64,000 nucleotides of DNA from Uranotaenia lowii (Eukaryota; Arthropoda; Insecta; Diptera; Culicidae): the NCBI RefSeq assembly GCF_029784155.1, contig NC_073691.1, forward strand, positions 125,674,714 through 125,738,713, written 5' to 3'. Below the pieces are notes generated by a model. The model was not told the origin of the DNA. It saw only the letters and a list, made by a program, of their open reading frames with translations, and searched no databases. Both the position numbers and the translations under genes were made by a program. Every line of letters begins with the position of its first letter. Positions within the stretch are counted from its first letter, which is position 1. Positions 19,622 to 62,356 of this stretch are shown piece by piece.

Positions 19622-20897
19622 AGGCAAACAAAATTATCAAAAGAGATGGATGCTTTTTTACACTCCTCGAGCGGCCAGTAGCGCTAATGGTAGTGGTCGG
19701 AAATATCCTGGTGGACTTCCAAGGGCCAGTCCCACAGAGCGATACTTAGAAATGCCGTCGATCAATGATTTCCGTATACTAACTGGATGGGATTATCATT
19801 CAAAACCTTTCTTCAATCAACTCCAAATGATTAGTGAAGATTTTGGCCAATCACGGAAAATAATAAAAAGGTGAAATTTACCGAGACAGCAAAGGTGAAT
19901 GCTCGCAAAAGCCAAAAAGGTAACTTCTACCTATTCGAGGTGAAACTCACCTCACAGCGAGGTAAAATATACCTGAAACGAAGAATGAAAAAAGGTACAA
20001 TTCACCGAGAAAAAATGTGAATCCAAAAAAGGTAAATTTCACCTCGTAGCGAGGTGAAGTTCACCTGAATTGAGCTGAATGAAAAAGTATAATTCACCTA
20101 GAAAGAAAGGTAAATCCAAATAAGGTAAAACTTACCTCGTAGCGAGGTGAAGTTGACCTGGATTGAGCTCAACAAAACGGTACAAATCATCTCGAAAAAA
20201 AAGTAACTATTTGACGAATCCGTTTATTGAGGTTAAGCTGTTTTGCCGTTGAGGAACAAGTTCTGCTTCGTGCACAATATGTGAAAATCGGAACCAAATG
20301 GTAAGTTTTTTCTTAGATTTCATTTAGTTGTGCTGGTTCTCTTCATAATACTTTGCTTTTGTTTCAGATCGGCCCACAGAGCTTCGTGTTGTTTTCCCGT
20401 CAGCCTTCAGATATTATTCCGGACAAGCCGGACCTGACAAGCTTGGCGAACAAAGGACTTGCCTCAACAATTTTTAAAGAACACGGTGATATATTTCAAA
20501 AATAAATATTAGGTAACTCCCTATTTATTTCAAATAAATACCAATTTTTTCATGAATTGTGTCTTTTTTAAATTAATTATTATTGAAGAAACCAATCAAA
20601 CAAACAAGCATTTACCTTTTAAATCAGTGAATGGGAAAACGGTATTATTTACTATTTTGCTAGGTGAATGAGAAAATGGTAAAATCTACCTTTTTGCTAG
20701 GTGAATTGAAAAAAGGTAAAATTTACCTTTTTGCTAGGTGAATGAAAAAAAGGTAAAATTTACCTCGAAAGAGGGGTGGAAAAAATTCACCTCGCAAAAA
20801 GGTAAATTTTACCTTTTTTTTTATTTTCCGTGAATTAAATCAGTTTTTGCTACCAAAATTATCGATTGTTAAAAAGGACCTTTGCGCCAAAAGATAA
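19622..20897 (+). CDS. unidentified exon-like open frame, interrupted by a 981-bp MITE
   Basis: A plausible intron (GTGAGT at 19,560 to ...TTACAG at 19,621, 62 bp) precedes an open frame that runs to 19,851 and contains YQKRWMLFYTPRAA and ILTGWDYHSKPFF. The MITE at 19,852-20,832 interrupts it. Removing the MITE and one AAT duplication lets the same frame continue for 20 codons (…EDFGQLNQFLLP…CAKR) to a TAA at 20,895. A donor-like GTAAGT follows at 20,910. I do not recognise the product. It may be an exon of a nested host gene or cargo of an older transposon. The upstream exon and start codon are unresolved. Confidence 0.35.
19852..20832. mobile_element. TIR element with GGTAAAATTTACC words, AAT target duplication
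   Basis: Ends CACGGAAAATAATAAAAAGG and the reverse complement of ...TTTATTTTCCGTG form a TIR of about 30 bp. It is flanked by AAT on both sides (19,849-19,851; 20,833-20,835). Subterminal regions hold many inverted copies of GGTAAAATTTACC / GAGGTGAAATTCACCT-type words; on the left they form imperfect ~95 bp repeats around CTCGTAGCGAGGTGAAGTT. No transposase, so it is non-autonomous. The core carries a spliced-gene-like cargo. A lone end of the same family lies at 52,237. Confidence 0.85.
20248..20506 (+). other. gene-like cargo inside MITE 19,852: exon, 67-bp intron, exon, AATAAA
   Basis: Donor GTAAGT at 20,301, acceptor TTGTTTCAG ending at 20,367, AATAAA at 20,501-20,506. The spliced frame is open from just after a TGA near 20,247 through exon 2 (IGPQSFVLFSRQPSD...KEHGDIFQK) to a stop overlapping the AATAAA. 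The only in-frame ATG is the last three bases of exon 1, directly at the donor. The core is less AT-rich than the element ends. No family recognised. Confidence 0.35.
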
Positions 20898-20937
20898 ATG
20901 CAATATGTCGTAAGTACATCTTCATTGATAAGAACAG

Positions 20938-21670
20938 CCCGAATAGGATTGCACCGTGAAAAAACCATGAATTCCATATTCACAGACCATAAATTGTATG
21001 GTTTACACCATCATTATAATCGTCCACGATACCGTGAATACACATTGGAATTCATAGTTTACGACCATACATTTCATCGTTTTGGCGAAAATAACCATGA
21101 AAAAGGGGTATTGTTATGCAGCGTGACCATGAAAAAAATGGCGATTTTCCATACATTGAAAAGCCCAAAAATATGAAGTTCATTGTTGTAGCATCTTCCA
21201 ATTTTTCATAGTAAAATCATGAAAATCCGATGATTTTCATTGTTAAACCGCTGTAATAAAAATTTTTGCTCATGGTGGGTATTTTGTTCTCGGTTTTTTT
21301 CTGTCATCATTTTCTTATTTTGTTTTAATAAAAATACAAATAATTTTTTTAACATTTATTATTTATTCTCATAATTTTAACACTTTACTCACACATTTTA
21401 TCATTCACTGGCCGGTCTGAGGCGGGTTCCGACATTCCGTCGTTCTGAGGCGAATTCCGGCATTCCGTAGCCGCCCCCAGTATCCATTGGCTATCGCCTC
21501 CTGTGCCATATGCAGTCGTTCGGTTGTATTTTGCTAGAATCAATAGAAAAATATTATAAAGATTGTTAAATTGGATTTATTGACTCACCGTTTCGCCAAT
21601 CTCCAAACACTTCGAAATAACTTTTAAAAAAATCCTCTAGCCCCGATTACCGATCGAGAATGATTGCGGG
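20938..21670. mobile_element. CCCGAATAG-family element with CATGAATTCATGG-type words (tentative right end)
   Basis: Left end CCCGAATAGGATTGCACCGT, followed by about 300 bp homologous to the left arm of the element at 61,324 (shared GTGAAAAAACCATGAATT and ATTAACCATGAAAAA-like blocks). The right end is taken at ...ATGATTGCGGG (21,670), which matches CCCG only weakly. No clean 2 bp duplication is seen, so the right border is provisional. The core holds its own cargo on the minus strand. Confidence 0.5.
21357..21660 (-). other. gene-like cargo inside element 20,938 (minus strand)
   Basis: On the minus strand, exon 1 ends …GAAACG at a GTGAGT donor (21,588). A 55 bp intron ends TTGATTCTAG (21,534). 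Exon 2 follows, and AATAAA-type signals lie near 21,357-21,366. The spliced frame is open for about 60 codons (…VISKCLEIGE, then TQNTTERLHMAQEAIANGYW…) to a TGA. It has no resemblance to the cargos of the related elements at 59,958 and 61,324. No known family recognised. Confidence 0.35.
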
Positions 21671-21838
21671 ACTTGACTCAGCAAATTCGAACCGAATAGA
21701 CGTGTGTTGCCAATTTTAGTAGAATTAAGCTGTGATTGTGCTATTTATTTTAGAATTAACCAATTTTGATCCGTACTACCAACTTGTTCGTCTTTAATTT
21801 ATTACCGTGCCGTTAAAATATAGTGTGTATTGAGTGGA

Positions 21839-22516
21839 ATGAGCGTAAACAAAGCTGCCCCCGACGGGGCAGCGGCTACAAACAATAATGATAACCTCAA
21901 ACCAGTTCATACTCCGGACGACCAAGAGATGGTAGATATCATTAAAAACATGAATGACCAACATAATCAACCTGATCAAGTAAGTCAAAATGAACCAGAA
22001 ATAGAACCGGGGAGAAAAGTATACCAGAAATTTAATTACTGCGAAACAGATAGTAGACCATACAGAGTTATTGTAGAGAACACAGACCTGAAAAGAAGAA
22101 AATATATTAATAGGCTTCAAATTGGGATAGTATTGAACCAATTAGGCTTCGACAAATGTATCGACGACATAAAAAAAACCGGACGTAACAAAGCTACTGT
22201 TTATGTTGGAAACATGAAGGATGCCAACAGATTAGCTGACTGTCAGAGTTTACTCTTGAAAGGATACAAATCGTACATCCCCAAAAAGTTTGTTACTGTA
22301 ACGGGAGTTATTTCCGATATCCCTTTAGAACTGAATCCGAATGAAATTTTTGAAAATGTGATTTGTGATGTCAAAGTGGAATCAGTGTTCAGAATGACAA
22401 GGAGATATAACGAGGAAAGGATCCCAACCAACCGAGTAGGTATTGTGTTCAGAAGTAATATGTTGCCAAGGTATGTAAGATTGTTTTCTGTGATAAATCG
22501 AGTCGAACCATTCATA
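21839..22516 (+). CDS. I-type element ORF1 (gag-like), 5' part
   Basis: First 226 codons of a 490-codon nucleic-acid-binding ORF1. The start is the ATG at 21,839; the frame is open a few codons upstream but has no other ATG. The N-terminal third is polar and Q/N/D-rich (TNNNDNLKPVHTPDD). It is followed by a domain containing RKYINRLQIGIVLNQLGF and KSYIPKKFVTVTGVISDIPL, typical of the region before the zinc knuckles in I/Jockey-type gag proteins. The reading frame reaches codon ATA at 22,514-22,516, then leaves gag homology exactly where the CCCAAG element begins. The missing part starts at 40,034 in the same frame. Confidence 0.8.
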
Positions 22517-23239
22517 CCCCCAAGTAACAATTTTAGTTTTATAAGAAACTGGAAGTGTACTTCCAATCTGAGTTCTAAAAAAACCTCTAGTTTTATAAAC
22601 CCCATTAAAACATCTATAAAACACCTATAAGTGTAAAAAGGCCCACCTACAGGAGGTCCTGAAGAGAAAAATTTCAAGTGTCTTATAAGACAACAAGGTT
22701 GTAAAAGAGGATTGCTAAGAGCTGTTTTAAGACAATCAATTCTCGATGCAGAAAACAAATTCTTCCGCGAAGCAATCGTTTCCAATGAAAGGTTTTGAAA
22801 ATGCATTTAATAAAATAAGTTAATCGGACTCATCACCCAACAATAATTTTGATCAGCCAAGATACAAAATGACTTTTATTATTATTTTATTCAAACACAT
22901 AATACATTTTCTCACTTTTCTCAAGGTTAAAGTTAATGCGCTTCCAGTTTTTTCCATTAATTTTTCTTAAAATTGATGAATATAATGCGCCCCCCAGAAA
23001 TGTTTAAAAAACTAGAGTTTAATAAATATTTTTTAAATTGTAAGATAGTTCCGATAAATTTCGATGACCGTTTCTGTTCTTCAACATAAATATTTGGTAC
23101 CATTATTGGTGCTGACAACATTTTTCGTAGCTATTCATGATTAATATCGCTCTATACTGCAATATTAAATGAAAAAATATTTTGAATTTTGATAATTTCA
23201 TCAGAAAATGGCGATTTATTCAAAAAACCTATAAGTCTT

Positions 23240-23715
23240 GAACAAAACATTTACACAACCTAACGATCTTGTGACGGACCATTCTGAGTGCTATTATTCC
23301 CGAGAACACCAATATAATTTGTTTCAGTATAGCTGTCAGTGCGATCAAATTCAAAATAAAACAATGTTCCGGAAATGCCGTCCCGATGGAGATTTTTTTT
23401 CGCAACTGCTAGACGGGACCAGAAAGCAGCAAATATGGGTCGGAAAGTCTCTCAACTTACAGGTAAATATGCTGAATTGTCATTTCTAAGGAGCACAGGA
23501 GTATAATCCACATTGCTTTCAGATTCTGGGGAGAAGAATCATCGTCGTTTGTTGATGGAACACAGGAAGGCGATTAAATTGAAACCGACCGGGAGTGCAC
23601 TAATGTTTATTAAAAAATCTTATTTTCCGACTCTGAAACTGCAGCTCCGAATATAGTTGATAGCAGACGGCAAATCGATGACTTGCTCTGAAAATCGCAG
23701 CAGAATCTTAATAAA
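23240..23715 (+). other. gene-like cargo of the CCCAAG element
   Basis: A frame containing FRKCRPDGDFFSQLLDG and KQQIWVGKSLNLQ reaches a donor (CAG then GTAAAT at 23,463). A 60 bp intron ends TTGCTTTCAG (23,522), a second exon follows, and AATAAA lies at 23,710-23,715. No known protein is recognised. It has the same exon - short intron - exon - AATAAA plan as the other cargos in the window. Confidence 0.3.
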
Positions 23716-24309
23716 AATGGAACCTATAAATGTGCAGGACGGATTGACTTGAGGGCTTTAAGTGTTGAAAAAACAAGTCATTCATTAGTGGTTAATGTAA
23801 AAAAGTGAATTGATAGTTAACTTTTAATAAAATCTAAAAAGAACATAACATCAAAAAAACATCTGTGAATTGTTTTCCTATTATCGACCACAATCGACAC
23901 AGCAGAGAAATGTTCACATGATAGGTAGGCCTCGGGGCTCAGGGAACGCTCTGGTTCCCGCGCCTCTTATTCTTTTATGTCCTATAGGATCACAGGAAAG
24001 GAATTTTTTCGCTCTCATAATTGCTCATAAATTGCAGTACGAATGAAGATATTTTCCTAACTTTCTCTGACTTATTGTATATCATCCATTCTGATATGCG
24101 ATGCAATGATTGATTCCCAATCATAGTGGCACTCGATGGGGTTGAAGATGGAGCTACTTCCAGGAGAAAGTTCGACGATACTAACTGTAGTGCTTGGTGA
24201 CAAAACTCGATCTCAGTTGTCTCCCGAAACAGCTTCTTCCTTCATCGGGGGGGAAAAAATTAGACAAATATTCCATTTGGTGGTAAACATTTGAGACGAT
24301 GCCACACAT
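23716..24309. other. AT-rich interior of the CCCAAG element
   Basis: No gene or clear repeat recognised. A GC-richer patch near 23,930-24,000 lacks an open frame. It ends at the 8 bp target copy CCACACAT (24,302-24,309) of the hAT-like element. Confidence 0.5.
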
Positions 24310-25227
24310 CAGGGTTGTCAGATGTTTTTTTAAAAAATCTGTATCGGCCTCATGAAAAAATCTGTATTTATCTGTATTTGAACTTTAACGACCAAAAACT
24401 TATATTATTGTTTTCTATGTAAGCTTATCGCCTAATACGCTATTTGGAAATCAGTAAATGGTCTTAACGTATTCATTATTCACAAATTGACAATTCATTT
24501 CATTAATTGAACTTAATTTAGAGCAGGGGCGAGAAACCTTTTGAACCAACGCACAGTGGTCCAAAATGCGAAAAACGTGATCGTTGCTTATAACTTTTTT
24601 AGGTCACATTTTAGCATATCGGTGTCTTGGGAAAAGTTTGTCAGTAAAATCAGCTCTATAATAAAAAACTATTATTTTTCTGATTAATCCCCCTACAAGT
24701 GAGATCAAATTTCTAACTTCTCTGTTATAGGCTTTAGCTCTTTGATGTCTTCGACAAACTTGTTAAAAATCAAATTTTCTACAACTTTGTCTCAGATGCC
24801 AAGTTTCTAAAATAATTATTATCCGAGATATCGGCCAAATAAGAAACTTAACCTTTAAAAATCAGTTTTTTGATAATAACTTTTTTCAGTAAATTTTAAG
24901 TTTAATAAAATGTTCCACAAAGATGTTTGTCTTACTAAAATACACCACTTTGTTGAACATTTTAAGTTTGTAAAATGTGAAACTGCAGAGCTATGTTAAA
25001 AAGATTACTGAAAATAGGGCTTTTTCATACCTTATTTTTCAAACACCGGGCAACATCGGGCAGCCCGCTTTAGATGCAAAATAAAGTCGAAGATTTCGTC
25101 TACAAGATGCAGGTACAATTGTCAGTATCCACTTGTATCCAAGCGAGATACATCAATTTGACTTTTCCATGTTTGCATTAAAAACAACGATTTCTATGAA
25201 AGCACATACAGCGCATTCTACTAGGTA

Positions 25228-26427
25228 CAGTTGCGTTCAAAAAAGAATGAAATCGCATGAAGCTGCGCACCCACTTCCAACTTTGACAAGCTGCCATTTC
25301 TCTCTCGGTTTATATTTTTTCATGAAAATTTCACACAATCTAGTTCAACTATCCAACTAACACTTCACAAAATTTAAAGTCTTTACAATGACGGGAAACA
25401 AAGATACAGCTATTTCCGTTGAAAAGGGAAATTTGGAACTGCTTCACTAAATTTGCTGTATCTTTGACAATATTCATTGAAAAGTTTTGAAATTTTGTTA
25501 AGAGATGTAAAAATGTTTGATCTAATACCAGGCTAAGTTTCGTCAAAATCGATGAACGTGATCAAAAATGGTGCCGGATTGAAAATGAGGTTCATTATCG
25601 CCCAGCAGACGATTTCATTCTTTTTTGGACGGATGTTTGTATGGAAAACATCGTAATCCATGTACTCTTGTTTTTTTCTTTCACAATACAAAAATTTATC
25701 AAAAATATTGTTGTAAATAGCTAAAAACATCATTCGTACTTTGTTTCGAAAAAGAAAATGTTCCAACATGGTTCAAAATAAAAAGAACAGAGTTTCAGTA
25801 ATGACCTGCTAATTACACCGATAAACAAATTTGATCCACAATTAAAGCGAATATTCTATTCGCTATTTTGTTTCAATACCAGCTCTGTTGGAATAATTTC
25901 TATTTCTAAACAAAGCAAAAATGAAGTTCCTATCAATTTACAACATTCTTTGTTATAAATGTTGATTTTGTAAAAGAAAAAAACCAGAATACATAGATTA
26001 CGATGTTTTCCATACAAACATCCGTCCAAAAAAGAATGAAATCGTCTGCTGGGCGATAATGAACCTCATTTTCAATCCGGCACCATTTTTGATCACGTTC
26101 ATTGATTTTGACGAAACTTAGCCTGGTATTAGATCAAACATTTTTACATCTCTTAACAAAATTTCAAAACTTTTCAATGAAAATTGTCAAAGATACAGCA
26201 AATTTAGTGAAGCAGTTCCAAATTTCCCTTTTTTTACGGGAATAGCTGTATCTTTGTTCCCCGTCATTGTAAAGACTTTAAAATTTGTGGAGTGTTAGTT
26301 GGATAGTTGAACTAGATTGTGTGAAATTTTCATGAAAAAATATAAACCGAGAGAGAAATGGCAGCTTGTCAAAGTTGGAAGTGGATGCGCAGCTTCATGC
26401 GATTTCATTCTTTTTTGAACGCAACTG
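25228..26427. mobile_element. Tc1/mariner-like palindromic MITE
   Basis: Flanked by TA (25,226-25,227; 26,428-26,429). The ends CAGTTGCGTTCAAAAAAGAA are inverted copies, a sequence type usual for Tc1/mariner TIRs. The two arms of roughly 560 bp pair almost to the centre, with divergence rising inward, so this is a long hairpin without a transposase. It contains no gene; open frames in it are by-products of the palindrome. Confidence 0.85.
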
Positions 26428-26429
26428 TA

Positions 26430-26626
26430 CGTGTGTTTTCTTCTAGCTTTTCCCTGCGCGATGTCAGAAGCAAAGGTTTGGAAGCGCATTTGTATTATTA
26501 GTACAGGTTATTGTGTGTTCAATTAAAATAGATATCCTCTACAAGCTGGAGATGCTAATAATACAAATGCGCTTCCAAACCTTTGCTTCTGTCATCGCGC
26601 AGGGAAAAGCTAGAAGAAAACACACG
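26430..26626. mobile_element. 197-bp hairpin MITE with TA flanks
   Basis: CGTGTGTTTTCTTCTAGCTT and its inverse close a hairpin with arms of about 75 bp and a loop near 26,505-26,555. TA flanks both sides, each TA shared with the neighbouring element. Confidence 0.85.
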
Positions 26627-27329
26627 TAGGGGAAGAGGGGGCATAATGCCCACGTTAAGAAGAAAGCCTTTTTTTTAGAACACATTTGAAAAGATTAACT
26701 TTAATTTTCGATTGTGTTTGGAAGTTTGGTTTATTTTTTGTCTGAATCTGATTGTTAGAATAACTGGAAGGTCAAAAAAGGCCACAAATTTAACGAAGTT
26801 TGAAGAGAAGGTAGAAAATTGGATTTCAGATTCAGTAGGGGCATAATGCGCATACACAGTAAATGAAAATTACCGAGTTCGGTAATTTAGTTTACAGAAA
26901 CTGTTCTGTAATTCGAAAATTTTCGGTAATTGATCAATCTGACGTCTAGTTTTTACCGAGTTCGGTAAACCGGTTCTTGATTTACCGATGTTCGTTAATT
27001 TTTATGTAAACAAATAACTTTGCCGTAAATTTTCGGTAAAAAAACACCGAAAACTGTAAACCAGTGTGCCGCTGTCAAACCAAGCGTCAAAACTGTCTCT
27101 TTCTGTTACCTTTAATGTAAAGGCATCTCGCTTGCGCCTCCTTTCTCGCTCATACATCCGTGTTCAATCGTCTCTCGTGTGCTCCATTTATAACCACACA
27201 AGCGTCGCCATTTTCGTCGGTTCGCGTGTGAAATTGTGTGGCTTGCAAGTTTTTGTGGTTTTATTTTTGTAGGTCGTTTTTTGTTTTGGTTCGAGTGTTG
27301 TTTTGGTTTGCGCTCGCGCAGCCCTCCAG

Positions 27330-28211
<882 letters not shown>

Positions 28212-28269
28212 CGCACAGCATCTATATTACTTACAAATTATGCTGGTAAGTTTTTTTTGCAGTCTTAAA

Positions 28270-29253
28270 CTGCCCCTATTTGCATATGAGTGCCATGTGC
28301 ATTTTCATCGTTTTTGAGTTATCGATCGAAGTTTGTTCGTAAAATTTCGTAAATATTACCCATGGTGTGTCCCTTGTGGAAAATAATCGCATATCCTAAG
28401 TCCAAAATTTAGCGCTAGAGCATACAATTGAGGGAAACTGTAGATAGAAAATGTAATAAATTTAATGCTAAAACATTAATTTACATAAAAAATTGAACGT
28501 ACAGTAGTGAAACGATTCCGAAATAATCTGTTTCTTAATATAAAAAAACATTAACAAGTAGCAGGAAAACTCTCCTGAAATGGATTTCTGTCATAAATCG
28601 ATAAACAACGCTCAATAGATTAGATTTCGGACAGGATGGATCCTCAGCGGGTAGTTTTGATAATCCAATGTTTAATCCATGGGTGCCACTTGAAGTGTTG
28701 TTTCGAAAACAAAATAACTAACTTTTGTAATCTTCTTTCTTCTATATCTACAATAATATCAATATCACTGTTTTCGTTTATTACCTTCAAAGATGTTCCC
28801 GGAAGAAGTCTTCTGCTTCGTCTTGGAGTTCAGCAAACCTTTGGTCGGAACTATCCACGTATCCGTAAACTTGAATTAAAGTCTGATAAATTCGTAGCAA
28901 TGTTCAACGAATGAAAACAAAATTTTGAACGTGTTAGAAAAGTACTTGCAATTTGTCACCAGCACTGATAACTTTAGTACAAGAGACCCATTTGCGATTA
29001 ATTTCCGCTGGAGGGTTCAAAATATTCGCATATGAGTCTCATGAGTATTTTATTGTATTTTCTCTGTTTAGTACTTGTAAGTATTGGCGCAGAAAGAAAC
29101 AAGAGTATTTTTTGAAGTGTTTTCTATCCAAACTATAAATAGGTTATCCATCAAATGAATATGATTGTTTTCATAAAAACAAGTTTCAAACTTGACAAGC
29201 GTTTTTTCAGTTTGCACTTTTTACACATGAGACTCATATGCGAATAGCGGCAG
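28270..29253. mobile_element. TIR element CTGCC(C/G)CTATT..., flanked by TAAA
   Basis: Left CTGCCCCTATTTGCATATGA and right read inward CTGCCGCTATTCGCATATGA, with TAAA on both sides (28,266-28,269; 29,254-29,257). A further copy of TTCGCATATGAGTCTCATGA occurs inside at about 29,025. An exon-like stretch follows a TTCAAAG acceptor-type site near 28,790. No transposase. Nested in the element at 26,855. Confidence 0.7.
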
Positions 29254-30285
29254 TAAACTGGGATTAATTTATTTATGTTTTTTTTTTATTCTCGTTATAC
29301 ATATAAATATGATAACTATCTTGAATCAATTAAATAAGTTTAGAAGCCTAGTGTTATCAAGTTTTGATTTCACGGTATAAAATTTTTAATAAAATTAAAA
29401 TTTCTCAAATATTCCAGGTTCCATTATGCACTACCCAGAGTATAAGAAATACATATGATAATTTAGTGGCAGTTAGTGCTGCGTTCATAGCAGTAACACT
29501 GTGCAGGAAAATCTTCACTGATCAGTTCTGGCCAGGGATTCGCGTATTCCAATAATGCGGAAATAAGAACATCGAAGAGAGCGACGAACCATATGACCTT
29601 GCAGCCACCGTTGGATAAGAGTCACCGGATTCACAGAAGGTATGATAATCAAGCAAGCATCCTTATCCTTATTCAGAATCCACAAAGGTTAACAAAGTCT
29701 GTTTGTTGGTAAGCTATTCTAAAAATTAAAGAATTTGAATTAAAAGAAATGTATGCCTCTAATATTTGTGTTCCGAAAGCTCATTTGTGTCTGAGACGAT
29801 CTAATTTTATGTCAAAAACGATGGTTCCCTTTTGTGCATCAAATCTGATTTAAATTTACATCATCGTTAATACAATATTAGGTCTAAAATGCCAATAAAT
29901 TGATGTTTGAAAATTTTTGGCTTCAAGCGTTTTTGTTTTCTCTGGTGTAATTTTATGTCAAAAGTGATGCTTCAATTTTGTGCATCCAATTTGACATAAA
30001 TTTACACCAAAAAATTAATAGTGTGTAAGTAAAAAATATGTTTAAAATAGTTAATCGGCATAATCACCCCACCAAAATTATCAACAGCCGTCGCACTAGT
30101 GGTAAAAGCATTCATCCAGCTGTTGCAAAAATGCACAGCAGCTGAATTCCGCCAGCATCAACTAAAATTTGCATATCTGCTTTTTTTAGGGCGAAACGAT
30201 AATACCGCCGGTACAGGAGTTATCCGAAGTTTCAGTCGCAACAATCGTCATTATCGGTAATTTTTAACAAACCTTGGAAAACGTT
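29254..30285. other. interior of element 26,855 without recognised gene
   Basis: AT-rich sequence with a GC-richer exon-like patch at 29,415-29,640 that has an acceptor-like TTCCAG before it but no supported frame. Two diverged copies of a GATGTAAATTT/TGACATAAATTTAC-type motif lie near 29,850-30,010. Confidence 0.4.
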
Positions 30286-30670
30286 CAGTAATTTCAGCTA
30301 AGGATGGGCATCGCATAACATGAAATGACTCGAGTCTCCAGAAGATACTTCAAGCGAGAAAATTTCACTTCTGAAGAACATACCTAGGACCTTAGAGACT
30401 ATGTCAAATTCATGTTTTCGCATGAAGCGGAGATGTCTTCTGAAACGAAATTTCCAACTTGTATTATTTCTTGTCAGACGCCATGAAGTTCGAAGTGAAA
30501 TGACACGAGTCGAAAATTTCAAGAAGACACGTTCGTTTTAGGCGAAAACATCGATTTGACGGAGCCTGGTTTATATATGTTCTTCAGAATTGAAATTTCT
30601 CAATTGAAGTGTTTTCTGAAGACTCGAATCATCTCGCGTAATGTGCTGTGCATTATAAGCTGAAATTACC
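30286..30670. repeat. inverted repeat (foldback MITE-like)
   Basis: GTAATTTCAGCT at about 30,288 and its inverse at about 30,665 open two arms of roughly 100 bp, which share GACTCGAGTCTYCAGAA-like and TTCTGAAGAACATA blocks (about 30,328-30,396 and 30,560-30,640). Imperfect pairing; no coding content. Confidence 0.6.
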
Positions 30671-31150
30671 GAACCTTTTACGGGTTTCGGTAAAAATTAC
30701 CGAAAATTTTACAGTTTTCGGTAAATATTACCGGTATTTCGGTAATAATCACAGAAATTTCGGTGAAAATTACCGTTTTTTTGGTAAAAGTTCCCGATAT
30801 TTCTGTAATAGTTACTGAAATACCGGTAATATTTATCAGCATTTTGAGAAGATTTACCGGCATTTCGGTAATTGTTACAGGTGTTTCGGTAAATTCTACC
30901 GGTCGATCGGTGAAAAATACCGAACTTTTACAGCTTTTCGGTAAAAAAATAACGGTATTTCGGTAATAGTTTTAGATAATTCGGTAATAATTACAGGTAA
31001 TTCGGTAATATTTTCAGGTTTTCGGTAATTTATTAAGGAATTTCTGTAAATCTTACCGGTTGTTTGGTACTTGCTACCAAGCTTTTATAGTTTTCCGGTT
31101 AAACATTACCGGCCTTTCGGTAATAATTACAGGCATTTCGGTTGTACAAC
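30661..31150. repeat. subterminal array of TTCGGTAA words
   Basis: About twenty copies of TTCGGTAA or close variants, alternating with TTACCG, at spacings of 15-35 bp. They belong to the right arm of the element at 26,855. Confidence 0.8.
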
Positions 31151-32766
31151 ACCGTTGTTCGGTAATATAACGAGCTGTCACGATGACAACTGTCAATAAT
31201 TTGACAGATGATCTTAGATATAATCAGCCGAGTTTCGATAATTTTTTACCGAAAAAGATCTGTAAATTTGACAGCTGTCACTTCTCCGCCATGGAAAAAT
31301 TACCGAACAGTTTAACGATTTCCACATGTTAGGATTTCGGTAAAAAAATTACCGAACTCGGTAATTTTCGTTTACTGTGTATGTGTGTACCCAATCGCGC
31401 CGTTCAACGTTTAATAAGTGTTTATTGATACAAGTGCCTCCGAAAGTGTTTTCCAGGTAAAAACACTTCTATTCTACTTCACAGATGGAAAAATGTATTG
31501 CTACGCGCAGTGCTGCCAGATATACTGAAATTCTTGTGAATAGTTAAATAAATCTATATTAAATTTAGGAATTTTAAATATATTCTTTTATATTCAAGTA
31601 ATGTTTTCCAATACAACTTATAAATATCTTTGTAATGGTTGTGATGAAACTGCATATAAATTTAATCAAATATGAAACATGCTTGTAGATAAACGGACAT
31701 GGCGCGTTTTGCCCCACCTAGACATGTTTATTAAAAATCGTTCAAAATAACATAAAAAATAATTGAATAAGGAAATTTTTCGTTTTGTGATGATTTTCAA
31801 GACCAATGTTCATCATTGTAACAGATGTCAGGTAATTTTTTTTGGCGATAGATGCCGTAATTCCTTACGAAAGTGAAGGCACAAATAACAAGCAATATGG
31901 CTTGAAAAGTATTTTTGGTTTTTTGCAGGGATTTATCGCATATTTGATACTAGTTTTTGTACAAAAGGTTTCTACTGTTAATTAGAAGGGAATAGCGTAC
32001 CGAATTCTTAAAATAAGTGTATATCTAGCTAGATATCGCAGTGGGGCGTTTTGCCCACACTGGGCATTATACCCCCAGTTCCCCTACCTTAAGTAGAATG
32101 CGCTGTATGTGCTTTCATAGAAATCGTTGTTTTTAATGCAAACATGGAAAAGTAAAATTGATGTATCTCGCTTGGATACAAGTGGATACTGACAATTGTA
32201 CCTGCATCTTGTAGACGAAATCTTCGACTTTATTTTGCATCTAAAGCGGGCTGCCCGATGTTGCCCGGTGTTTGTAAAATAAGGTATGAAAAAGCCCTAT
32301 TTTCAGTAATCTTTTTAACATAGCTCTGCAGTATCACATTTTACAAACCTGAAATGTTCAACAAAGTGGTGTATTTAAGTAAGACAAACATCTTTGTGGA
32401 ACATTTTATTAAACTTAAAATTTACTGAAAAAAGTTATTATCAAAAAACTGATTTTTAAAGGTTAAGTTTCTTATTTGGCCGATATCTCGGATAATAATT
32501 ATTTTAGAAACTTGGCATCTGAGACAAAGTTGTAAAAAATTTGATTTTTAACAAGTTTGTCGAAGACATCAAAGAGCTAAAACCTATAACAGAGAAGTTA
32601 GAAATTTGATCTCACTTGTAGGGGGATTAATCAGAAAAATAATAGTTTTTTATTATAGAGCTAATTTTACTGACAAACTTCTTCGAAGACACCGATATGC
32701 TAAAATGTGACCTAAAAAAGTTATAAGCAACGATCATGTTTTTCGCATTTTTGACCACTGTGCAAC

Positions 32767-33532
32767 GGGTCAGTTTTATTTCAAAATATTCTCGGCGGGC
32801 CGCGCTAATATGAAATAAAACTCGTCAATCATTTATCGAGCTCTATAGATAATAACAAAAAGATTTGCTAGATAATAAAAAGTTAAATCGTAATAATTAC
32901 AAATTTTTAGTGATTTTTTTATTTCAAATCATTTATTTTAAATCTTTGAAAATATAGTTTTTCAATTAACTTTAACTTCTTCGCAAACATTCGTTCTTCC
33001 AAACATAGACATCATTTGCATAACATTTTTCCTTAAAAACGTACGATGCACAAACACGTTTAACGCCTTTCCATATAATAATCATTTTTATCTTAACTGG
33101 CGGTATCTACTCATTACTTTCTTTAAAAGTCTTCTGGAGCTATCTATCTATATCACAGCAATAACTAAAAAACTAGAGATACATTTTTTTATTTTTGTGG
33201 TTCAAATTCACTGATCTGAATTTCGGTGTTCTGTACGTATTTCCAAAAAAAATCCACAGTTAAAATTGGCCCTACGAAGCCCTGATTTTTTTTCCTGCAA
33301 TTCGCGAAAAACATTTTTAATATAACGTGTCAACCAAATTTGCTGAAATCCTGGGAATAACAAAAAATTCACAGGTTGCCAAGCAAATTTTAGGAGAGTC
33401 TACATTCTTTATTGTTTTTAAGCTTTATTTAATAGATTTTATTAATTAAACTTTAGTGCTACTGGGAAAAGATTTCGAAGGCCTGTTGAAGGAAATATCT
33501 TGACGTTTTGAATATGAATTCCTATTTACCAA
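32767..33532. other. interior of second hAT-like element, no gene seen
   Basis: AT-rich sequence beginning with the hAT-type GGTCAGTTTTATTTCAAAAT and the GGCGGGCCGCGC patch. No conserved frame. Confidence 0.5.
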
Positions 33533-34002
33533 CCCGAATACGAAAATATTGTAACACAACAGTTCCTGTAGTCGTTATAAAACGATAAGAAACAGCGTAA
33601 AAAAACTTTTAGAAAATGATACCTGATACCATAAAAAACATTGCACTTATCTTGAATTCCAAAACGACGGTCTGTTGAATATGGCGTTAAGTTATGTTAC
33701 TGTTTAAAACTGTTAAAACCTTTATATGGAGGAACTGTACTACAAACAGTTTAAATAACGTCCAGAAAACGCTATTGGAAAACGTAATCAGACAACCAAA
33801 CTGTTAATATTACAGTTTTTTGAAGAGTAATCTTTTATCAAAACAGTAACAGTAATAATTATCAAACGATTCAAAATAAGGTTTTCTCCAACGTTATCCA
33901 GAACCGTACGTCAATACCGGTCTCACACACACATAGATGGAAATGTTTTGGAAATTTTCGGATGTTTGATATCAATTCAACTTTTTTCACATAATCTTTA
34001 TC

Positions 34003-34330
34003 TTTATTACACTTGGTTTACTTACAAATGGTGAAAATTCAAAACCTGTTGATACCGCATAGTTTGATGATTCTTGCAGAAAGATCCTACCCGGCCATGG
34101 GCATAGCATATGGATTCTCGTAGCTCCAGCGCTACGGAATGCTGGGAAGCCATCGTCACCCGGGTGATGAACGGACGAGGAAGCTGAAATTAATGTATGG
34201 ATCATTACTCTTTTTTATATATAAAGAATTTATTACGTTAATATACTTACTGTAATTATTTCCGGTAGCTTCCGCAGAACGAACCAGCCAGTATAGAATC
34301 CCGCGATTTCGGCGGAGCGAAAATTGTTGT
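34003..34330 (-). other. gene-like cargo of element 33,533 (minus strand)
   Basis: Exon 1 ends …ATTACA at a GTAAGT donor (34,250). The intron is 67 bp with acceptor ATTTCAG (34,184); exon 2 and AATAAA (34,003-34,008) follow. The frame is open across the splice for over 90 codons, including LYWLVRSAEATGNNYT and SSVHHPGDDGFPAFRSAGA, to a TGA past the AATAAA. GC content is clearly above the flanks. Product unknown. Confidence 0.35.
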
Positions 34331-37910: not shown

Positions 37911-37912
37911 TA

Positions 37913-46653: not shown

Positions 46654-48656
46654 CCCGAATACGAAAATATTGTAACATAACAGTTCCTGTTGAAGTTATA
46701 AAACGATTAGAAACAGCGTAAAAAAACGTTTAGAAAATGATATCTTAAACCATAAAAAACATTGCACTTATCTTGAATTCCAAAACGACGGTCTGCTGAA
46801 TATGGCGTTAAGTTATGTTACTGTTTAAAACTGTTAAAACTTCTATATGGAGATACTGTTCTGCAAACAGTTGCGATTACGTACCAAAACCACTAACGAA
46901 TAACGTATTTTTAGCATCGAACTGTTTTTGTTACAGTTTTTTTAAAAGTTCTCTTGTATCTGAACATTTACAGTAAAAGTTGTAAAACGATTCGATATTA
47001 CGTTCTTCTGTACCCTATCCTGAATCGTAAGGGAATGCAGCACGCACACACTCACGCAAGAAAGTTTCGTTTATTTGTAAAAACACTCATTTTATAAATT
47101 TATAATTGTTTATTCCTTTCAATTCTACGATGTATAAAAACATATTTCCTCCACCAGAAAGTATAATTCCGGAAACACAGGTGAGACGCTGGCTTAGCCG
47201 CTGATCACTGCTGTATCCAAAAGAGTTCGGGACATTGCTCCTTCCAGCGAGACCTTGGTCCTCCAGCTCCGTTTTCTGAAATAAAGAAAACCTTCGTATA
47301 TTTCATTTGAATATTTATTTACTGTTAATCGAATTTACCTGGTACATCGCTGGTGCTCTTCTTCCGGTTTGTCCCGGTAATATATCCATCCGTCGGACCA
47401 CAATCGGTGAAAACTTGTTGCTGCTGGTATGCGGGATTAGGACCTGAAAAACGAAAACTTGTTTTTTTTTGTGTTCTTTTTCTCGGTCAGTTGACAGCAC
47501 TTGGCAGTGATGCCGACTAGACGGATTTAAAAAAAATTGAACCATTATGAGATTAAAATGTGATTTATAGCTAAATAGAAAATATAGATACTTATATAGC
47601 TCTGAGGCTTCTAGAAACAGACAAATTTCGAGGACACAGAATTTAAATAACTGATTATTGAAAACTAACAAAACGAAAGGAGAAATGATATTTCTCAAAC
47701 TTGAAAGCAGCGTACACAGATACAGATTTTTTTTCTTTTATCATTTTATTAATTAACGATGAATAAAGTCATGCATGAAATGAGCAAAACCGATGTTTTA
47801 CTTTAGTCGGTGAAAGAGTTGAACAATCAATTTGTGAATGTAGCATGATTTATAATTAACACGTGTTAATGAACATATTAAATCAATAAACAAAAGAGTA
47901 ATTTTGTAACTCAACTTAATGCTTAATGTAGACTGCGTGAGTATAATTAAGAATAGAATTTCAAAATATTATGTGTTTATAGGCATCCTTATGAAAAACT
48001 TTAAATTCTACCTAACATTTCAAAATCATCAACTCTTGCACTGAATGTTACCAACTGAATAATCTGAAATTAATTTAAGTTAATCCTTAATTAATTTTGA
48101 TTAGTTTAGAGCTGGAGCGCAGCGTGTTTGCTTAGCTGTACTGCACACTTCATAACTTAAGAGACTTGAATAAACAGTCTGAAGACTATAGAGTCTATAA
48201 AATTCAATAGTCTCTTTAGGCAGATCAGTGCGAATTCTATCATTTAGCTACACACTAACCGCTTTTGGTATACCTTGAACATATAACTGCGACTGCCAAA
48301 CATTGAACGGAATCCTACTTTCAATACAACAGACAATAAGTGCTGAATTTTTCAAAACGATGGATCTGGCACCTATGACACGGTAATTTTGACGTAAGTT
48401 TGGCAGAAGACATGGACGCTACGCGTTATTGTTCGATAATAATCTAACGGTAATTGATAAATTTGAAGTAAATCGTAATATCATTCATTAACCTTTTCAG
48501 ATACCTTCATCTTTTAATGTATACGTTTATTTATCGTTCTTAACGTTGTCGACAGACAGTTCAAAATAAAAGCTACGTTAACAGATACAATCACTATTTC
48601 TAGAGTCGTAAAGGTATCGTATTGACTGTTTGAGATATAGTTTTTTGCTATGCGGG
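46654..48656. mobile_element. CCCGAATACG element, copy 2
   Basis: Left CCCGAATACGAAAATATTG, right read inward CCCGCATAGCAAAAAACTAT, AT on both sides. It shares its ends and several internal blocks with the element at 33,533 and is about 2.0 kb long. The cargo lies on the minus strand in the left half. The rest (47,700-48,500) is AT-rich without recognised genes. Confidence 0.8.
47109..47443 (-). other. gene-like cargo of element 46,654: two exons with open spliced frame
   Basis: Minus strand: acceptor TTTTTCAG, then a 105 bp exon 47,443-47,339 (35 codons, includes MDILPGQTGRRAPAMYQ), donor GTAAAT, 63 bp intron and acceptor TTTATTTCAG. A second ex­on starts at 47,275 and encodes KTELEDQGLAGRSNVPNSFG onward. 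AATAAA is at 47,109-47,114. The frame stays open through both exons, about 90 codons in total. No known family. Confidence 0.38.
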
Positions 48657-48725
48657 ATGCCAAGTGGTTCTTACGACCTAATCAAAACAAACTCTAGAAT
48701 TATTCATCGCTGCCAGCGTTGGAGA

Positions 48726-52605: not shown

Positions 52606-53691
52606 CACGCAGCGAAAAGATTTTTCATTTCAAAGGAAAGTGCCGCAAAAACAAAGGATTTTTTCCTTTGATTTTGGGATAAACAAAAATTCCTTTGATT
52701 CAAAGGCATTTTCCTTTGTTTCAAAGAATTTTTCTTTTGAAAAATCTTTGAATCAAAATATTAATGCTTTGAAACAAAAAAGAGTTCCATTTGATGCAAA
52801 GTTGTTCTCGTTTGCTACAATGTAATTTAGATTTAGATTTAAAAGGATTGGTTCATTGAACCATTTTCCTTTTATTCCAATTGGAAGGAATATTTTCTGT
52901 TGTCCCGAAGTTCCTATTAGGAATTTTGAATAATAAAAAGAAAGAATTTACATTTTAAATTCATTTTTATTCACAAAATAACACTAAAACTGGTTCACTA
53001 TAATTTTGGTCCTAATTTTGGCCTGAGGGGGCCGCTCAATATACTTATACAATATACAATATACTTATACAATATAGACTTCTGGAAGCAGCTCCGGTTG
53101 CTAGCTTTAGTGGTCATCTCAACTGGTGATTACCGCTGAAGATCGGGCCGGAGATTATGAGACCGCTGGATTTGGGGCGAAATCTGCCGCGGTCCTGTAA
53201 TGTAAGAGTTTATATAAAATCTTAAACATTCACTTTTTTGATTAATGGATTAACACACACTTACCATTCTTCATCCTGAATCCTCCTAAAGCTATCTCTG
53301 ATTCACTAGTTTTGATTTTCAACACAACCGGACAAACTTTATTTGAAATTCGGTTCTTGCTCAATCCAAAATATCTTCTAAGTTAAAAATTTTAATTTAA
53401 AGAAATCATTCCTTTCTGTTGAAAACAATTTTCTTTGGTTGACAGAAAATTTACTTTGTTTTTAACGAAATGTGCAATTGAACAAATTTCTTTTGAATCA
53501 AAGAATTTGTTCAAAATCAAAGTCCAAAATTCTTCAGTTCAAAAAATTAATTCTTTCTTTCAAAAATTTTTCATTTGAATCAGAACGATAATTCATTGAT
53601 TCAAAGAAAACAGGAGTTTGATTAAAAAAACTGAATGTTTTGATTCAAAGTCAGTTTTGTTTTGTATCAAAATCCAAGTTTTCTCTGCGTG
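52606..53691. mobile_element. TA-flanked CACGCAG-TIR element with CTTTGATTCAAAG words
   Basis: Left CACGCAGCGAAAAGATTT, right read inward CACGCAGAGAAAACTTGG. TA at 52,604-52,605 and 53,692-53,693. Both ends (to about 52,800 and from about 53,400) are built of CTTTGATTCAAAG/TTTGAATCAAA words. The core holds minus-strand cargo. No transposase. Confidence 0.85.
52966..53290 (-). other. gene-like cargo of element 52,606 (minus strand)
   Basis: Exon 1 ends GAAGAATG at a GTAAGT donor (53,264). A 70 bp intron ends ACATTACAG (53,195), exon 2 follows, and AATAAA is at 52,966-52,971. Two frames cross the splice: ATG (last bases of exon 1) with DRGRFRPKSSGLIISGPIFS… for 23 aa, or MKN with GPRQISPQIQRS… for about 20 aa. 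Both stop well before the AATAAA. Function unknown. Confidence 0.3.
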
Positions 53692-53693: not shown

Positions 53694-54428
53694 GATTTGG
53701 TTATTTTTTCCCAGTCAATCTGATAGTTAGTTCTCAAACATCACTGATGCTTGACTAGACCTCGAATTTTGTTCAACCAACATTGATTTCCAAGAAGAAC
53801 AAGTAATATATTTATTTGGTTTAGGAATTCAAAAAAGTAAAAGACAAAGGAGGTTTTGGAGTTTTTTCAGGAAAAGTTGACCGTCACCAAGTAGCAAAAA
53901 GGTCGGTAATGCTAATTTCTTTTTTAAGTTGTTTTTGTTTGTATAAAATTATTCACTTTTAGAAAAATAAGTTATCAATAAATAAGCCGGTGTACTCACC
54001 CGCGCACAACCGGAACCGGCGCTGTAGACTACTGATCCCTTGCTACGTCGGAACCGGTGCTATTGTCTGCCAGACCGGCCCAAAACAGAAATATTTGCGT
54101 AAACTGTGCCGGGAGATGGTCTTTTTCCGGCACAAATTCGACCACGTGTGTTTTGACATTTGGAAAATTTGGGGTGCGTTGCTAAAATAATCAATTTTAT
54201 TTCATGATTATTAATTTTATCTTTCAGGAATAATATTTTATCTTACCGGCGCGTTGCTAAATTACTCATTGAGTTTCTTGAAAGATTAATCGTATCTTTT
54301 GGAAATAGTTTTTACTCGTTTCTAGCGAAGGCACATTAGCAATGACTCAAAAGAAATTCTAACTATCTATATAATCAGAATCGAATAATTTGAAAGATTC
54401 AAAGCATGGTTCCTTGCTATGCGGGTAC
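53694..54428. other. AT-rich region with one GC-rich patch, no gene recognised
   Basis: The patch 53,985-54,180 (several CCGGAACCGG-like and GTGCCGGGAGATGG stretches) has a short open frame but no ATG start, splice context or recognised motif. TTGCTATGCGGG near 54,425 resembles the right end of the CCCGAATACG elements, without a convincing partner. Confidence 0.4.
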
Positions 54429-59957: not shown

Positions 59958-61057
59958 CCCGAATAGCAAAGACCATGATCCATACCATAACCGAACAGTG
60001 ATTTTCAATTTAACAATAAAATTCATAGTAATTTCAAGATCATTATCAACCTTCAAAAATTTTGAAATCTCCATGTTTTCTAAGGTAACCTTGAAATGTA
60101 TAGTCAATTCATGATGTTTCACAGTTGCCGAATACATCAGAAACATGGTATGACAGTAATTATCTTATGATATTTATTGTGACAGTGAATTTCATGGTTA
60201 AAAGCCAATCCAAACCAAAACGAATATTGGTAAGCTTTCGCTATTTTAACCTATTTTCTATTTATCGTGTAGTTGCTTTTCGCTAAAATAAATTTTTCGT
60301 GAGCACCTTATGTTTACGCGCCATATTTGTCCGGACAGTGTTTTGTGTTCAATAATTTTCGAACAAAGATTCCTATATACGGTGAGAACTTTTTAAAACT
60401 TGTTTTTCCTTTTATCAATTTCTATGTTTGTTTCTTTTCTTTCTAGGAGCTGCTAAAAGTCGGTCTAGCATACGAAACTATTGTCACCGTCGAATGGAGT
60501 CGATTTTCACGCCAATGTATCCGAACATGACGGAGAAAGAGAAGTCGGTGGAAAAAACTACATGGATATATTCTCTATCCAGGAAGAAAAATGTGATCAA
60601 TGATCCTAAAATGTAAGTGGATTTGTTAAAATAAAAGTATCGATAAAAATTTAGAATTTGATTAAAATAATCCGAAACCCCCCTATCAAAATATACATAA
60701 TTTGTGAACCATGAAATTATACGGTAAAAAAATATTTAAAAACGACGAAAATTCATTGTAGGACAATAAATTTCACAGTTCCTATTAGAAAAACTGGATG
60801 CTAAAATAACCATCAACATAATAGTTTCGTGTTTTCAAATGTATGGGAAAAAGTTGATTTTTTCATGGTTAAGTTGCTTAACAACCCCCCTTTTTCATGG
60901 TAATTTTTGCCAAAACCATGGCTTTTATTGTCGAAAACATTGAATTTGACAGTGAATTCAAGGTTTCAATACCATAATATTCATAGTATAAACCATAAAA
61001 TACATGGTAGAGTAAAAATGAAATTCATAGTTTTTTCACCTTACTTTTTTATTCGGG
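59958..61057. mobile_element. CCCGAATAG-family element, insertion 1 in Copia gag
   Basis: Left CCCGAATAGCAAAGACCATG, right read inward CCCGAATAAAAAAGTAAGGT, AA on both sides (59,956-59,957; 61,058-61,059). Subterminal zones repeat CATGGT/ACCATG and TTCATAG words. The right arm is homologous, in reverse orientation, to the left arms at 61,324 and 20,938. Core carries plus-strand cargo. Confidence 0.9.
60312..60635 (+). other. gene-like cargo of element 59,958
   Basis: Frame APYVYAPYLSGQCFVFNNFR…PIY runs to a donor (GTGAGA at 60,382). A 65 bp intron ends TTTCTTTCTAG (60,446), and exon 2 continues in frame (GAAKSRSSIRNYCHRRMESI, FTPMYPNMTEKEKSVEKTTW…) to a stop at about 60,616, with AATAAA at 60,630-60,635. 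About 80 codons are open across the splice. Unknown product. Confidence 0.4.
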
Positions 61058-61323
61058 AAACCAATCCGAACGGAGTTAACTCGCCGGGCGCCGGTCACAG
61101 TCGCAGCCAGAATTCCTTGGCTCTGCCGTCGATCGAGCTTCTGATGGGACGAGACAACTGGTCAACCTGGAAGTTCGCTGTGCAGACATTTTTGGAGCTG
61201 GAAGACCTGTGGGAAGCGGTCAAGCCGGGTCAGAACCCTGACGGAAGTTTCGAGAACGTGGATGCAGATAAGGATAGACGAGCACGTGGGAAAATCATTC
61301 TCCTGCTCGACCCCGTTAATTAT

Positions 61324-62356
61324 CCCGAATAGAAAAACATTGTGAAAAAACCATGAATTTCATTTTCACACTACCATGGATTTTACGGTTGACACATGAA
61401 TATCATGGTGCAGGAAACCTTGAATTAACTGTCAAGTTAATCTTTTTCGACATTGAAATTTATGGTTTTCGCGAAATTAACCATGAAAAAAGGGGGTTGT
61501 TAAGCAACTTAACAATGAAAAAATCAACTTTTTTCCATACATTTCGGAACACAAAACGATAATATTTATGGTTATTTTAGCTTCCAGCTTTTTACAAGGG
61601 AATCGTGATATTCATTTTACTTTCATTGTTTTGACGATGATCATTAATTTTCACATTTTTTTCATGGATTTTATATTTTTTCGCTTCAGCTCATATTGCA
61701 TTGCTTATAGTTAGGGAAATAAAAAAAACAAAAAGATTCATTTATGTCATAATATTTATTCACAAATCACAATCCACTTACAAATTTACATAAATATTTC
61801 TTTGAGAGTCACTGTTTCTTCGCGAGTTCTATGTATACTAGCTCAGGTTGAGCTCCAGAAATCCTTCTTGAGAAATCCACCGTCACAGAATTTGATTTTT
61901 CGGCAGACATCCGGTAGCGCGATTCTCCGTGGACTGATCTGCCTCAACATCGTTTGCTTCTCCTGAAATAAAAAAAAAACATAAGTTTCAAACAGCTTAA
62001 TCCTTAAAATCGATACAACATACCATTATTTTAAGTGAATTTACAGCTCTTGGGCAAAGTTTGAACAAAAAAAAATTCAAACACCTTCGCGTACCACGTG
62101 CACCAAACCTGATGAAAATTTTCGTTTGACAGCAAATGCTACACGCTCGTTTTGAAATCCAACCAACTAGGCAGAACATACAGTGAAATAATATATTTTT
62201 ACAGTGGTTTTCATGGTTGCTGTAATATTCATGGTAATTTCATCTTCATACACAAATTTTACTTCCAAGGAAAGATTTTGATTTTACATTGTTATTCACT
62301 GTTATGTTAAAAATTATTGTTTATTTACTGTAAGACCGCGGTCTTGGCTATTCGGG
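61324..62356. mobile_element. CCCGAATAG-family element, insertion 2 in Copia gag
   Basis: Left CCCGAATAGAAAAACATTGT, right read inward CCCGAATAGCCAAGACCGCG, AT on both sides (61,322-61,323; 62,357-62,358). Deletion rejoins the gag frame (…DPVNY then VHVRD…). Word arrays of CCATGAA/TTCATGG. Cargo on the minus strand. Confidence 0.92.
61752..62179 (-). other. gene-like cargo of element 61,324: putative 91-aa spliced ORF
   Basis: ATG at 62,179 opens MFCLVGWISKRACSICCQTK and continues 52 codons to an exon end …SLKIM at a GTATGT donor (62,023). A 61 bp intron ends TTTTATTTCAG (61,963). Exon 2 (EKQTMLRQISPRRIALPDVC…KKDFWSST) stops at 61,843. AATAAA follows near 61,757. In frame throughout. Cys-containing, basic; no family recognised. 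Confidence 0.4.

Follow-up and report, generated by a model that had tools for sequence, protein, structure and literature searches.

Small inverted-repeat elements in the window

The window is the whole stretch of Uranotaenia lowii DNA that was analysed (64,000 nucleotides of contig NC_073691.1), and it holds about ten small elements with terminal inverted repeats (TIRs), most of them enclosing a short core that resembles a spliced gene, the cores differing in sequence and alike in build (Table 1). Six elements measure 0.9–1.1 kb and at least four terminal types occur in all. TIRs together with a target-site duplication (TSD) were established for A, B, D, F, G, H, I and M, and the repeats of the elements with CCCG ends (B/H/I and D/F) span only ~8–9 bp. 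Transposase-sized frames are absent from these elements, the longest in a list of frames of at least 110 aa being 140 aa from stop to stop (in F), and no autonomous CCCG-end element was recognised within the window; the small elements are probably unable to move by themselves. An earlier sequence-only reading had listed A to I. Its positions hold for A, D, F, G, H and I, whereas B is split by an insertion and C and E lack a clear TSD. J and M have the same build as the listed elements, though absent from that list.

Several elements are nested. M is interrupted by A, B and F, measures 984 bp without these inserts, and carries A after its splice acceptor. The two parts of B lie 24.6 kb apart through the Jockey-type insertion, with a ~15-bp duplication, AGAATGATTGCGG(G)AC, at 21657 and 46310. 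The right end of C was assumed to be 24240 in our tests; because the likely partner of its left end lies near 40031, the core at 23463 may be foreign to C. H and I both sit inside one Copia-type gag, the frame of which closes once I is removed, the in-frame reading of H having been made by eye. A fragment of an MRP-type ABC transporter lies in K, a further TIR element of the window, which shows that elements of this sort can contain gene pieces here. IMP4 of the window is 90–91% identical to that of Culex, Wyeomyia and Toxorhynchites, from which the stretch is probably culicine. Arm-sequence patterns had no match in IMG/VR and GTDB contigs, as expected for insect DNA, and a BLAST search of the H/I region against phages gave none.

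Table 1. Positions and signals of the elements and associated features in the window
Feature	Position	Strand	Ends and duplication	Intron	Poly(A) signal	p value or remark
Element M	19157..48697	+	TIR CTAGAGTTTGTTTTGATTAGGTCGTA, AATT both sides	19560-19621 (+)		
Element A	19852..20832	+	CACGG ends, CACGGAAAATAA; TSD AAT	20301-20367	20501	p = 0.007
Element B, poly(A)-side part	20938..21672	-	CCCGAATAG end	21588-21534	21367	p = 0.020
Element B, upstream part	46325..46503	-	TSD AG			On the far side of the Jockey-type insertion
Jockey-type non-LTR retrotransposon in B	21673..46309	+				Type named by eye; C, D, E and others nested inside
Listed element C	22519..40031	+	Left end CCCAAGTAAC; likely partner end CCCAAGCAAC near 40031; no clear TSD			
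Intron-like signal of C	23463-23522	+				p = 0.10
Element D	33533..35575	-	CCCGAATAC ... GTATGCGGG; TSD AA	34250-34184	34008	p = 0.19
Poly(A)-side arm of D	33533..33933					81.5% identical to F arm 46651-47054
Strip upstream of D core	34340..34442					Kept in F, 40-column windows 0.64-0.88
Two small TIR elements nested in D	34561-34941, 35017-35193					
Listed element E	44468..46248	+	CACACGCT ends, 8-bp match; no clear TSD			Spliced core unsupported (p = 0.50)
Element F	46654..48656	-	CCCGAATAC ... GCTATGCGGG; TSD AT	47338-47276	47114	Intron score 19.0
Element G	52606..53691	-	CACGCAG ends; TSD TA	53264-53195	52971	p = 0.033
Element J, single end	53694..54425	-	CCCGCATAGC, end at 54425	54246-54182		Intron score 15.9; poly(A) rule unmet
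Element H	59958..61057	+	TSD AA	60382-60446	60630	p = 0.013
Element I	61324..62356	-	TSD AT	62023-61963	61760	p = 0.013

Splicing, poly(A) and coding signals of the cores

Cores were tested for a GT–AG intron of 50–80 bp followed by a poly(A) signal, with 150 dinucleotide shuffles each. The sequence-only reading had credited its listed elements with such cores, and this held for six of the nine (A, B, F, G, H and I; p = 0.007–0.033), while C (0.10), D (0.19) and E (0.50) were not significant against shuffles. None of 15 comparison stretches, two of which were later found to contain J and part of M, fell below 0.05 (6/9 versus 0/15, Fisher p = 0.0006). The best hit of F in the shuffle test, to which its p value of 0.013 refers, is on the opposite strand (47181-47247) and scores 19.3, against 19.0 for the core counted for this element.

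A scan of the window right of 15.7 kb returned 13 passing candidates, eight of them in M, A, B, F (two), G, H and I, which make up 22% of the length (p = 0.0025). Leaving out M, which the scan itself had revealed, seven of 13 lie in elements (p = 0.007); with F also counted once, six of 12 do (p = 0.02). The intron of M has a scan score of 18.0, its poly(A) rule having been satisfied by a signal within the arm of A, and M without its inserts has ATTAAA 228 nt past the acceptor. The splice matrices were untrained; the best introns at three real-intron stretches of the window score 11.7–14.6 with them. Cores had also been described as less AT-rich, and exon GC is indeed above that of both the intron and the remaining element sequence in 10/10 cores, a contrast independent of the splice score except for the T-rich tract. 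CCGG is in excess in these exons (24 observed, 7.4 expected).

Splice and poly(A) signals that arose by chance, or have no function, in a GC-richer and fast-changing interior seem an unlikely explanation. This would fit the results for C, D and E, the higher wrong-strand score in F and a minus-strand candidate in the arm of A (score 22.1, without poly(A) signal), but the excess over comparison stretches, the scan (p = 0.0025–0.02) and the uniform GC contrast all argue against it.

The evidence for coding, judged from the sequence, is mixed. Open frames across the splice, noted earlier in six elements, do exist; against block-wise shuffles, sense frames reach p ≤ 0.03 in five of ten elements and antisense frames in two of ten, and sense frames are longer than block-shuffled ones overall (combined p = 2e-5 over 10). 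In A, G and I the donor is immediately preceded by an ATG (AATG). Only A, B and C come near coding sequence in codon usage, the remaining seven scoring -0.08 to -0.22; host codon usage is of limited use as a coding test, since true frames of the window's transposon genes score low too. Pfam gave no family at cut-off, transposase families included, in the core frames tested; SpoVAB (E = 0.028), V4R (0.18) and NOG1 (0.24) did not reach it and, like three PDB matches (E = 0.3–0.7), were set aside, the companion search giving no match. A THAP-like remnant in E was an idea formed by eye, with no Pfam match. The B peptide had no homologue, nor had nine joined core peptides in a database that includes mosquito proteins; this last search needed an estimated ~76% identity to a protein of ~280–900 aa, hence it does not refute gene capture.

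Like arms around unlike cores

Homologous arms with unrelated cores, which had been reported for B, H and I, are confirmed there and recur in D and F. Between D and F, identity drops to 0.35–0.38 at the core edge and the second exons give no alignment. The cores point the same way within each CCCG-end group (B/H/I 3/3 towards the same arm, D/F 2/2), which is weak evidence because random orientation within the two groups would give this in five elements with a probability of 1/8. From poly(A) signal to terminus the distance is 430, 428 and 437 nt in B, H and I, and 476 and 461 nt in D and F.

Comparing eight elements, exon 2 minus its final 60 nt gave 1/28 pairs at p < 0.05, which is chance level. 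The other parts gave three (upstream), two (exon 1), five (intron) and three (beyond the poly(A) signal) of 28, the intron matches being put down to composition. The 3' ends are alike in 7/28 pairs (p < 0.05), with TGTAAGTGGATT common to H and I. Together with the near-constant poly(A) distance, this suggests that the elements keep a resident 3' end, at the least, instead of gaining a new one each time, which tells against the cassette reading given below. Common ancestry of the cores at the DNA level was unsupported (36 pairs, both directions, 40 shuffles). Core z-scores were 4.9 for B/D reversed, 4.6 for G/I, 3.3 for H/I, 3.2 for B/H and below 3 for other pairs except D/F, whose 11.0 arose because the compared segment took in the conserved upstream strip. 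Translated comparison of ten elements gave 2/45 pairs for exon 2 and 4/45 for exon 1 at p ≤ 0.05, about chance.

A second option proposed earlier, that the transposons carry and disseminate functional microprotein genes, now appears very improbable. Long sense frames across the splice, the AATG at the donor and the coding-like codon usage of A, B and C would suit such genes, but exons are unrelated between elements with like arms, at both DNA and protein level, and a reading frame conserved among members was not found across the ten elements. Antisense frames are equally unlikely under shuffling in 2/10, the codon scores of seven elements are low, and the B peptide is without homologue.

A closer rival, possible if somewhat doubtful, is that the cores are left over from the transposase genes of the transposons themselves. 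The elements would then have arisen by internal deletion from different autonomous families, each core retaining the promoter, the first and last exons, a single intron and the poly(A) site of such a gene. This would account for the fixed direction, the poly(A) signal beside the arm at constant distance, the position of the ATG in A, G and I, the similar 3' ends, and the shared build of elements that differ in terminal type. One would expect a coding end to stay recognisable longer than an arm, yet D and F retain a poly(A)-side arm at 81.5% identity and an upstream strip at 0.71–0.88 around unalignable second exons. Moreover, no transposase domain was detected in the frames tested, and the joined peptides had no protein match.

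Possible cassette exchange and known Pack-type elements

The observation is largely real: ends, duplications, signals, direction and unlike exons between like arms are all present in the DNA. We tentatively favour reading it as non-autonomous TIR elements whose spliced cassettes can be exchanged but keep a fixed direction, in a build like that of Pack-type elements. The arms would hold the signals for a transposase supplied from elsewhere, and the cassette between them (exon, short intron, exon, poly(A) signal) would be swapped as a whole unit in a fixed direction. Exchange could thereby leave the arms and promoter-like strip of D and F alike while their exons diverge sharply from the cassette edge onwards. 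The most probable route would be DNA-level, Pack-type-like acquisition of a gene piece, putatively from the host, with its 3' end, and the cassette may be retained by selection in the orientation where transcription would be spliced and would end before the second arm. A further strong acceptor opens the cassette of F (47444, score 11.0, 105-nt exon), as if it had been cut from a longer gene. Of the Pack-type capture originally suggested, like ends with different spliced cargo are borne out, whereas a parental gene was not found in Pfam and peptide searches.

Quite unlikely, in our estimate, is a convergent design across unrelated TIR groups, in which a spliced cassette and 3'-end signal in the same direction would prevent self-pairing RNA that feeds small-RNA silencing. 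Processing layout and direction would be conserved, and sequence or protein not; the CCGG excess might, at a similarly long shot, be a further mark of such a design.

Should the layout prove to recur throughout the genome, transposons would have supplied mosquito genomes with a great many short, spliced transcription units, from which false gene models, new exons and intronic terminators could arise. It would also allow direct tests of a 3'-end and one-direction preference in gene acquisition by DNA transposons, and of transcript processing as a shield of the element from silencing.

Ordinary MITEs and internal-deletion derivatives are short and non-autonomous, with arms kept and interiors free to vary. 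Their definition includes no recurring exon–intron–exon–poly(A) layout in fixed direction of the sort seen here. As in Pack-TIRs, TIRs with TSD are present and like ends enclose unlike cargo (B/H/I, D/F), C and E being unclear and J having one end; no transposase is encoded, as judged from frames of at least 110 aa and Pfam on the core frames tested. Animal Pack-TIRs likewise have TIR ends flanking a small non-TE piece, internal pieces having a median of 224 bp and some being captured terminal exons and 3' UTRs; they are defined by a parental copy, and the available text describes no direction rule for them (PMC8277862). Plant Pack-TYPE elements are also non-autonomous TIR elements, with captured coding DNA, but belong to plant superfamilies and have cargo traced to genes, according to the accessible part of PMC8903248.

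The present elements had been called a kind rarely described in insects. In its available sections, Tan et al. 2021 (PMC8277862) agrees, reporting no Pack-TIR in insect reference genomes, with low TIR content as the reason, and one Pack-TIR family in fly populations, whereas the portion of PMC5225508 at hand describes >300 Muta1-derived Pack-MULE-like elements in Aedes aegypti, ~20% of them with host-gene pieces. Those Muta1 derivatives resemble the present elements in being non-autonomous TIR elements of a mosquito, alike at their ends and variable inside. The former have 8–9 bp duplications and 145-bp TIRs, the latter 2-bp, 3-bp, TA or AATT duplications and other ends; assignment to the Mutator-like (MULE) superfamily, defined there by 8–10 bp duplications and a long TIR, was rejected on the 2–4 bp duplications found here. 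While ~20% of Muta1 interiors are alignable to host genes, the present interiors share a recurring spliced build, with no parent found. The kind is therefore already known from the Pack-type elements described in Aedes aegypti (PMC5225508, as far as its available text extends), and the present elements are a variant of it.

Genomic setting and element ends

The window is nuclear mosquito DNA, probably of culicine origin, an assignment based on its IMP4 protein, which shares 90–91% identity with its homologues in Culex pipiens, Wyeomyia and Toxorhynchites. A 188-bp satellite array (97–98% matches) fills its first 15.7 kb. The ORF list contains two blocks of what we take to be a diflavin-reductase-like gene, with IMP4 between them on the opposite strand, and a presumed WD40 gene. 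The space between the two blocks, which holds the small TIR elements A–F, is probably one large intron.

Coordinates and ends of features in the window (TSDs of B, D, F, H and I were read from flanks)
Feature	Position	Ends or repeats	TSD or flanks
A		CACGG	AAT
B	right end 46503	CCCG	AG, 2 bp
C	left-end partner likely near 40031		
D		CCCG	AA, 2 bp
F		CCCG	AT, 2 bp
G		CACGCAG	TA
H		CCCG	AA, 2 bp
I		CCCG	AT, 2 bp
J	lone end 54425	CCCG	
K	26855–31379	33/34 first end bases match	TA
M (separate element)	19157/48697	inverted repeat	AATT at each side
Satellite array	166–15682		
Diflavin-reductase-like gene (presumed)	16430–17302, 49992–51021		
WD40 gene (presumed)	~51067–52150		
Repeats on either side of K and fold-back	24551–25227, 32085–32763	inverted, 679 bp, 97.6% identity	
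Large fold-back element	25225–26430		
TIR element	36756–37910	CCCAAGCAACC	
Tandem array	54431–54818		
LTR retrotransposon	54820–59674	178-bp direct repeats	
Repeat in Copia-type element	62824–63764	28-bp inverted repeat with GGGGTAAGTGGGGACG, complementary throughout	

A search of the window for CCCG ends returned B, D, F, H and I, plus the lone end of J. B is divided by a Jockey-type retrotransposon (Jockey-type and Copia-type are our own labels, presumed by eye), with AGAATGATTGCGG(G)AC repeated at 21657 and 46310, and is 914 bp long without this insertion. A single Copia-type gag harbours both H and I as insertions, and its reading frame is restored across I on removing I, and also across H with a join set by eye. 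A, B and F are insertions within M, which without them measures 984 bp and has an intron score of 18.0. The TIR element with ends resembling the far end of C contains a 111-bp tandem array (3.1 copies). The LTR retrotransposon adjoins another tandem array and is probably a recent insertion, since its direct repeats are 100% identical.

Predicted spliced cores

The sequence-only reading placed a spliced core (exon, short GT-AG intron, exon and poly(A) signal between two arms) in each of the nine listed elements, A–I. Introns of 50–80 bp were scored with untrained splice matrices and a poly(A) rule, and the best intron per element was compared with 150 shuffles. Six elements stood out (A, p = 0.007; F, H and I, 0.013 each; B, 0.020; G, 0.033), C and D were not significant (0.099 and 0.185; the extent of C, to 24240, was assumed in statistical tests), and E had no support for a gene-like build (0.503). 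The top-scoring intron in F lay on the other strand (19.3, against 19.0 for the core's own). None of 15 hand-chosen comparison stretches was significant (p = 0.106 to 1.0; Fisher's test, 6/9 against 0/15, p = 0.0006); two of these stretches were later found to include J and part of M, whose introns failed the poly(A) rule, the signal lying beyond the stretch.

A scan of 48.3 kb gave 13 intron candidates scoring at least 15, eight of them within M, A, B, F (two), G, H and I, together accounting for 22% of the scanned length (p = 0.0025; 0.02 under the strictest count); the other five were at 15713, 23463 (the C stretch), 28192, 39088 and 52142. Exons had the highest GC in all ten cores (0.37–0.48, against 0.15–0.37 in introns and 0.26–0.36 in the rest of the element). 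In A, B, F, G, H, I and M we regard the gene-like organisation as genuine, and in J and D as likely.

CCGG, an excess first spotted by eye and then counted, was the most over-represented tetramer in core exons (24 seen, 7.4 expected), occurring in nine of ten cores (A, B, C, D, F, G, H, I and J, with seven in J and none in M). Host coding sequence of the window showed no such excess (10 against 9.3); one non-coding comparison stretch did (13 against 6.5).

Like arms, unlike exons

Common arms around unrelated cores, as proposed from sequence alone, were borne out. The poly(A)-side arm is common to B, H and I (271–308 bp, 70–81% identity), and another to D and F (~400 bp, 81.5%), yet among eight elements compared as DNA few pairs were alike at p < 0.05 in exon 1 (2/28) or in exon 2 minus its last 60 nt (1/28); in translation, ten elements gave 4/45 and 2/45 pairs, respectively. 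With the shared arm as reference, the cores point the same way in B/H/I (3/3) and in D/F (2/2), group ends corresponding by eye, and the core of J agrees with its single end. As chance agreement of the two groups would be 1 in 8, direction is suggestive only. The terminus lies 430, 428 and 437 bp from the first poly(A) signal in B, H and I, and 476 and 461 bp in D and F. Element layout and direction are therefore conserved while exon sequence is not.

Whole cassettes may have been cut from genes and exchanged, as in Pack-type elements, a reading we tentatively prefer; in its favour are the sharp edges of D/F identity (0.71–0.88 in 40-column windows directly upstream of the core, then 0.35–0.38) and the acceptor with which F opens. 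Only slightly less likely is that the elements are deletion derivatives of autonomous elements and retain a resident gene end, a reading favoured by the constant poly(A) distance, the likeness of 3' ends (7/28 pairs at p < 0.05) and the ATG-donor pattern (AATG at the end of exon 1 in A, G and I). Our guess is that the cassette would end transcription before the second arm, which fits direction and layout.

Coding potential, parents and known systems

The open frames earlier noted across the splice stand in part: sense frames exceeded block-shuffled length in 5/10 cores at p ≤ 0.03 (combined 2e-5), but so did antisense frames in 2/10. On a host codon-usage scale where true frames average +0.09 and wrong frames −0.17, A, B and C scored +0.06, +0.01 and −0.01, and the other seven −0.08 to −0.22; such values are compatible with coding because the window's own transposon genes score low as well.

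Protein relatives of the cores, a check suggested by the sequence-only reading, did not emerge: the Pfam search of the core frames tested gave no family at its cut-off, the B peptide no protein match, and nine joined core peptides no match at E ≤ 10 among 5805 candidates. In contrast, the same kind of search readily picked up a frame-broken MRP/ABCC nucleotide-binding-domain fragment (~27.36–28.21 kb; Pfam 3.6e-8; PDB MRP1 1.8e-53) in the TIR element K, a candidate Pack-type element with a recognisable parent family.

Within a limited library and set of terms, the portions of the literature covered held no report that we noticed of a recurring, direction-fixed spliced cassette in insect TIR elements. 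The Pack-type subject of PMC8903248 is plants. Tan et al. 2021 (PMC8277862) give 370 Pack-TIRs in 100 animal genomes; their reference genomes of insects yielded none, and flies a single family. In Aedes aegypti, according to PMC5225508, more than 300 non-autonomous Muta1 derivatives have mostly variable interiors, and ~20% carry host-gene pieces.
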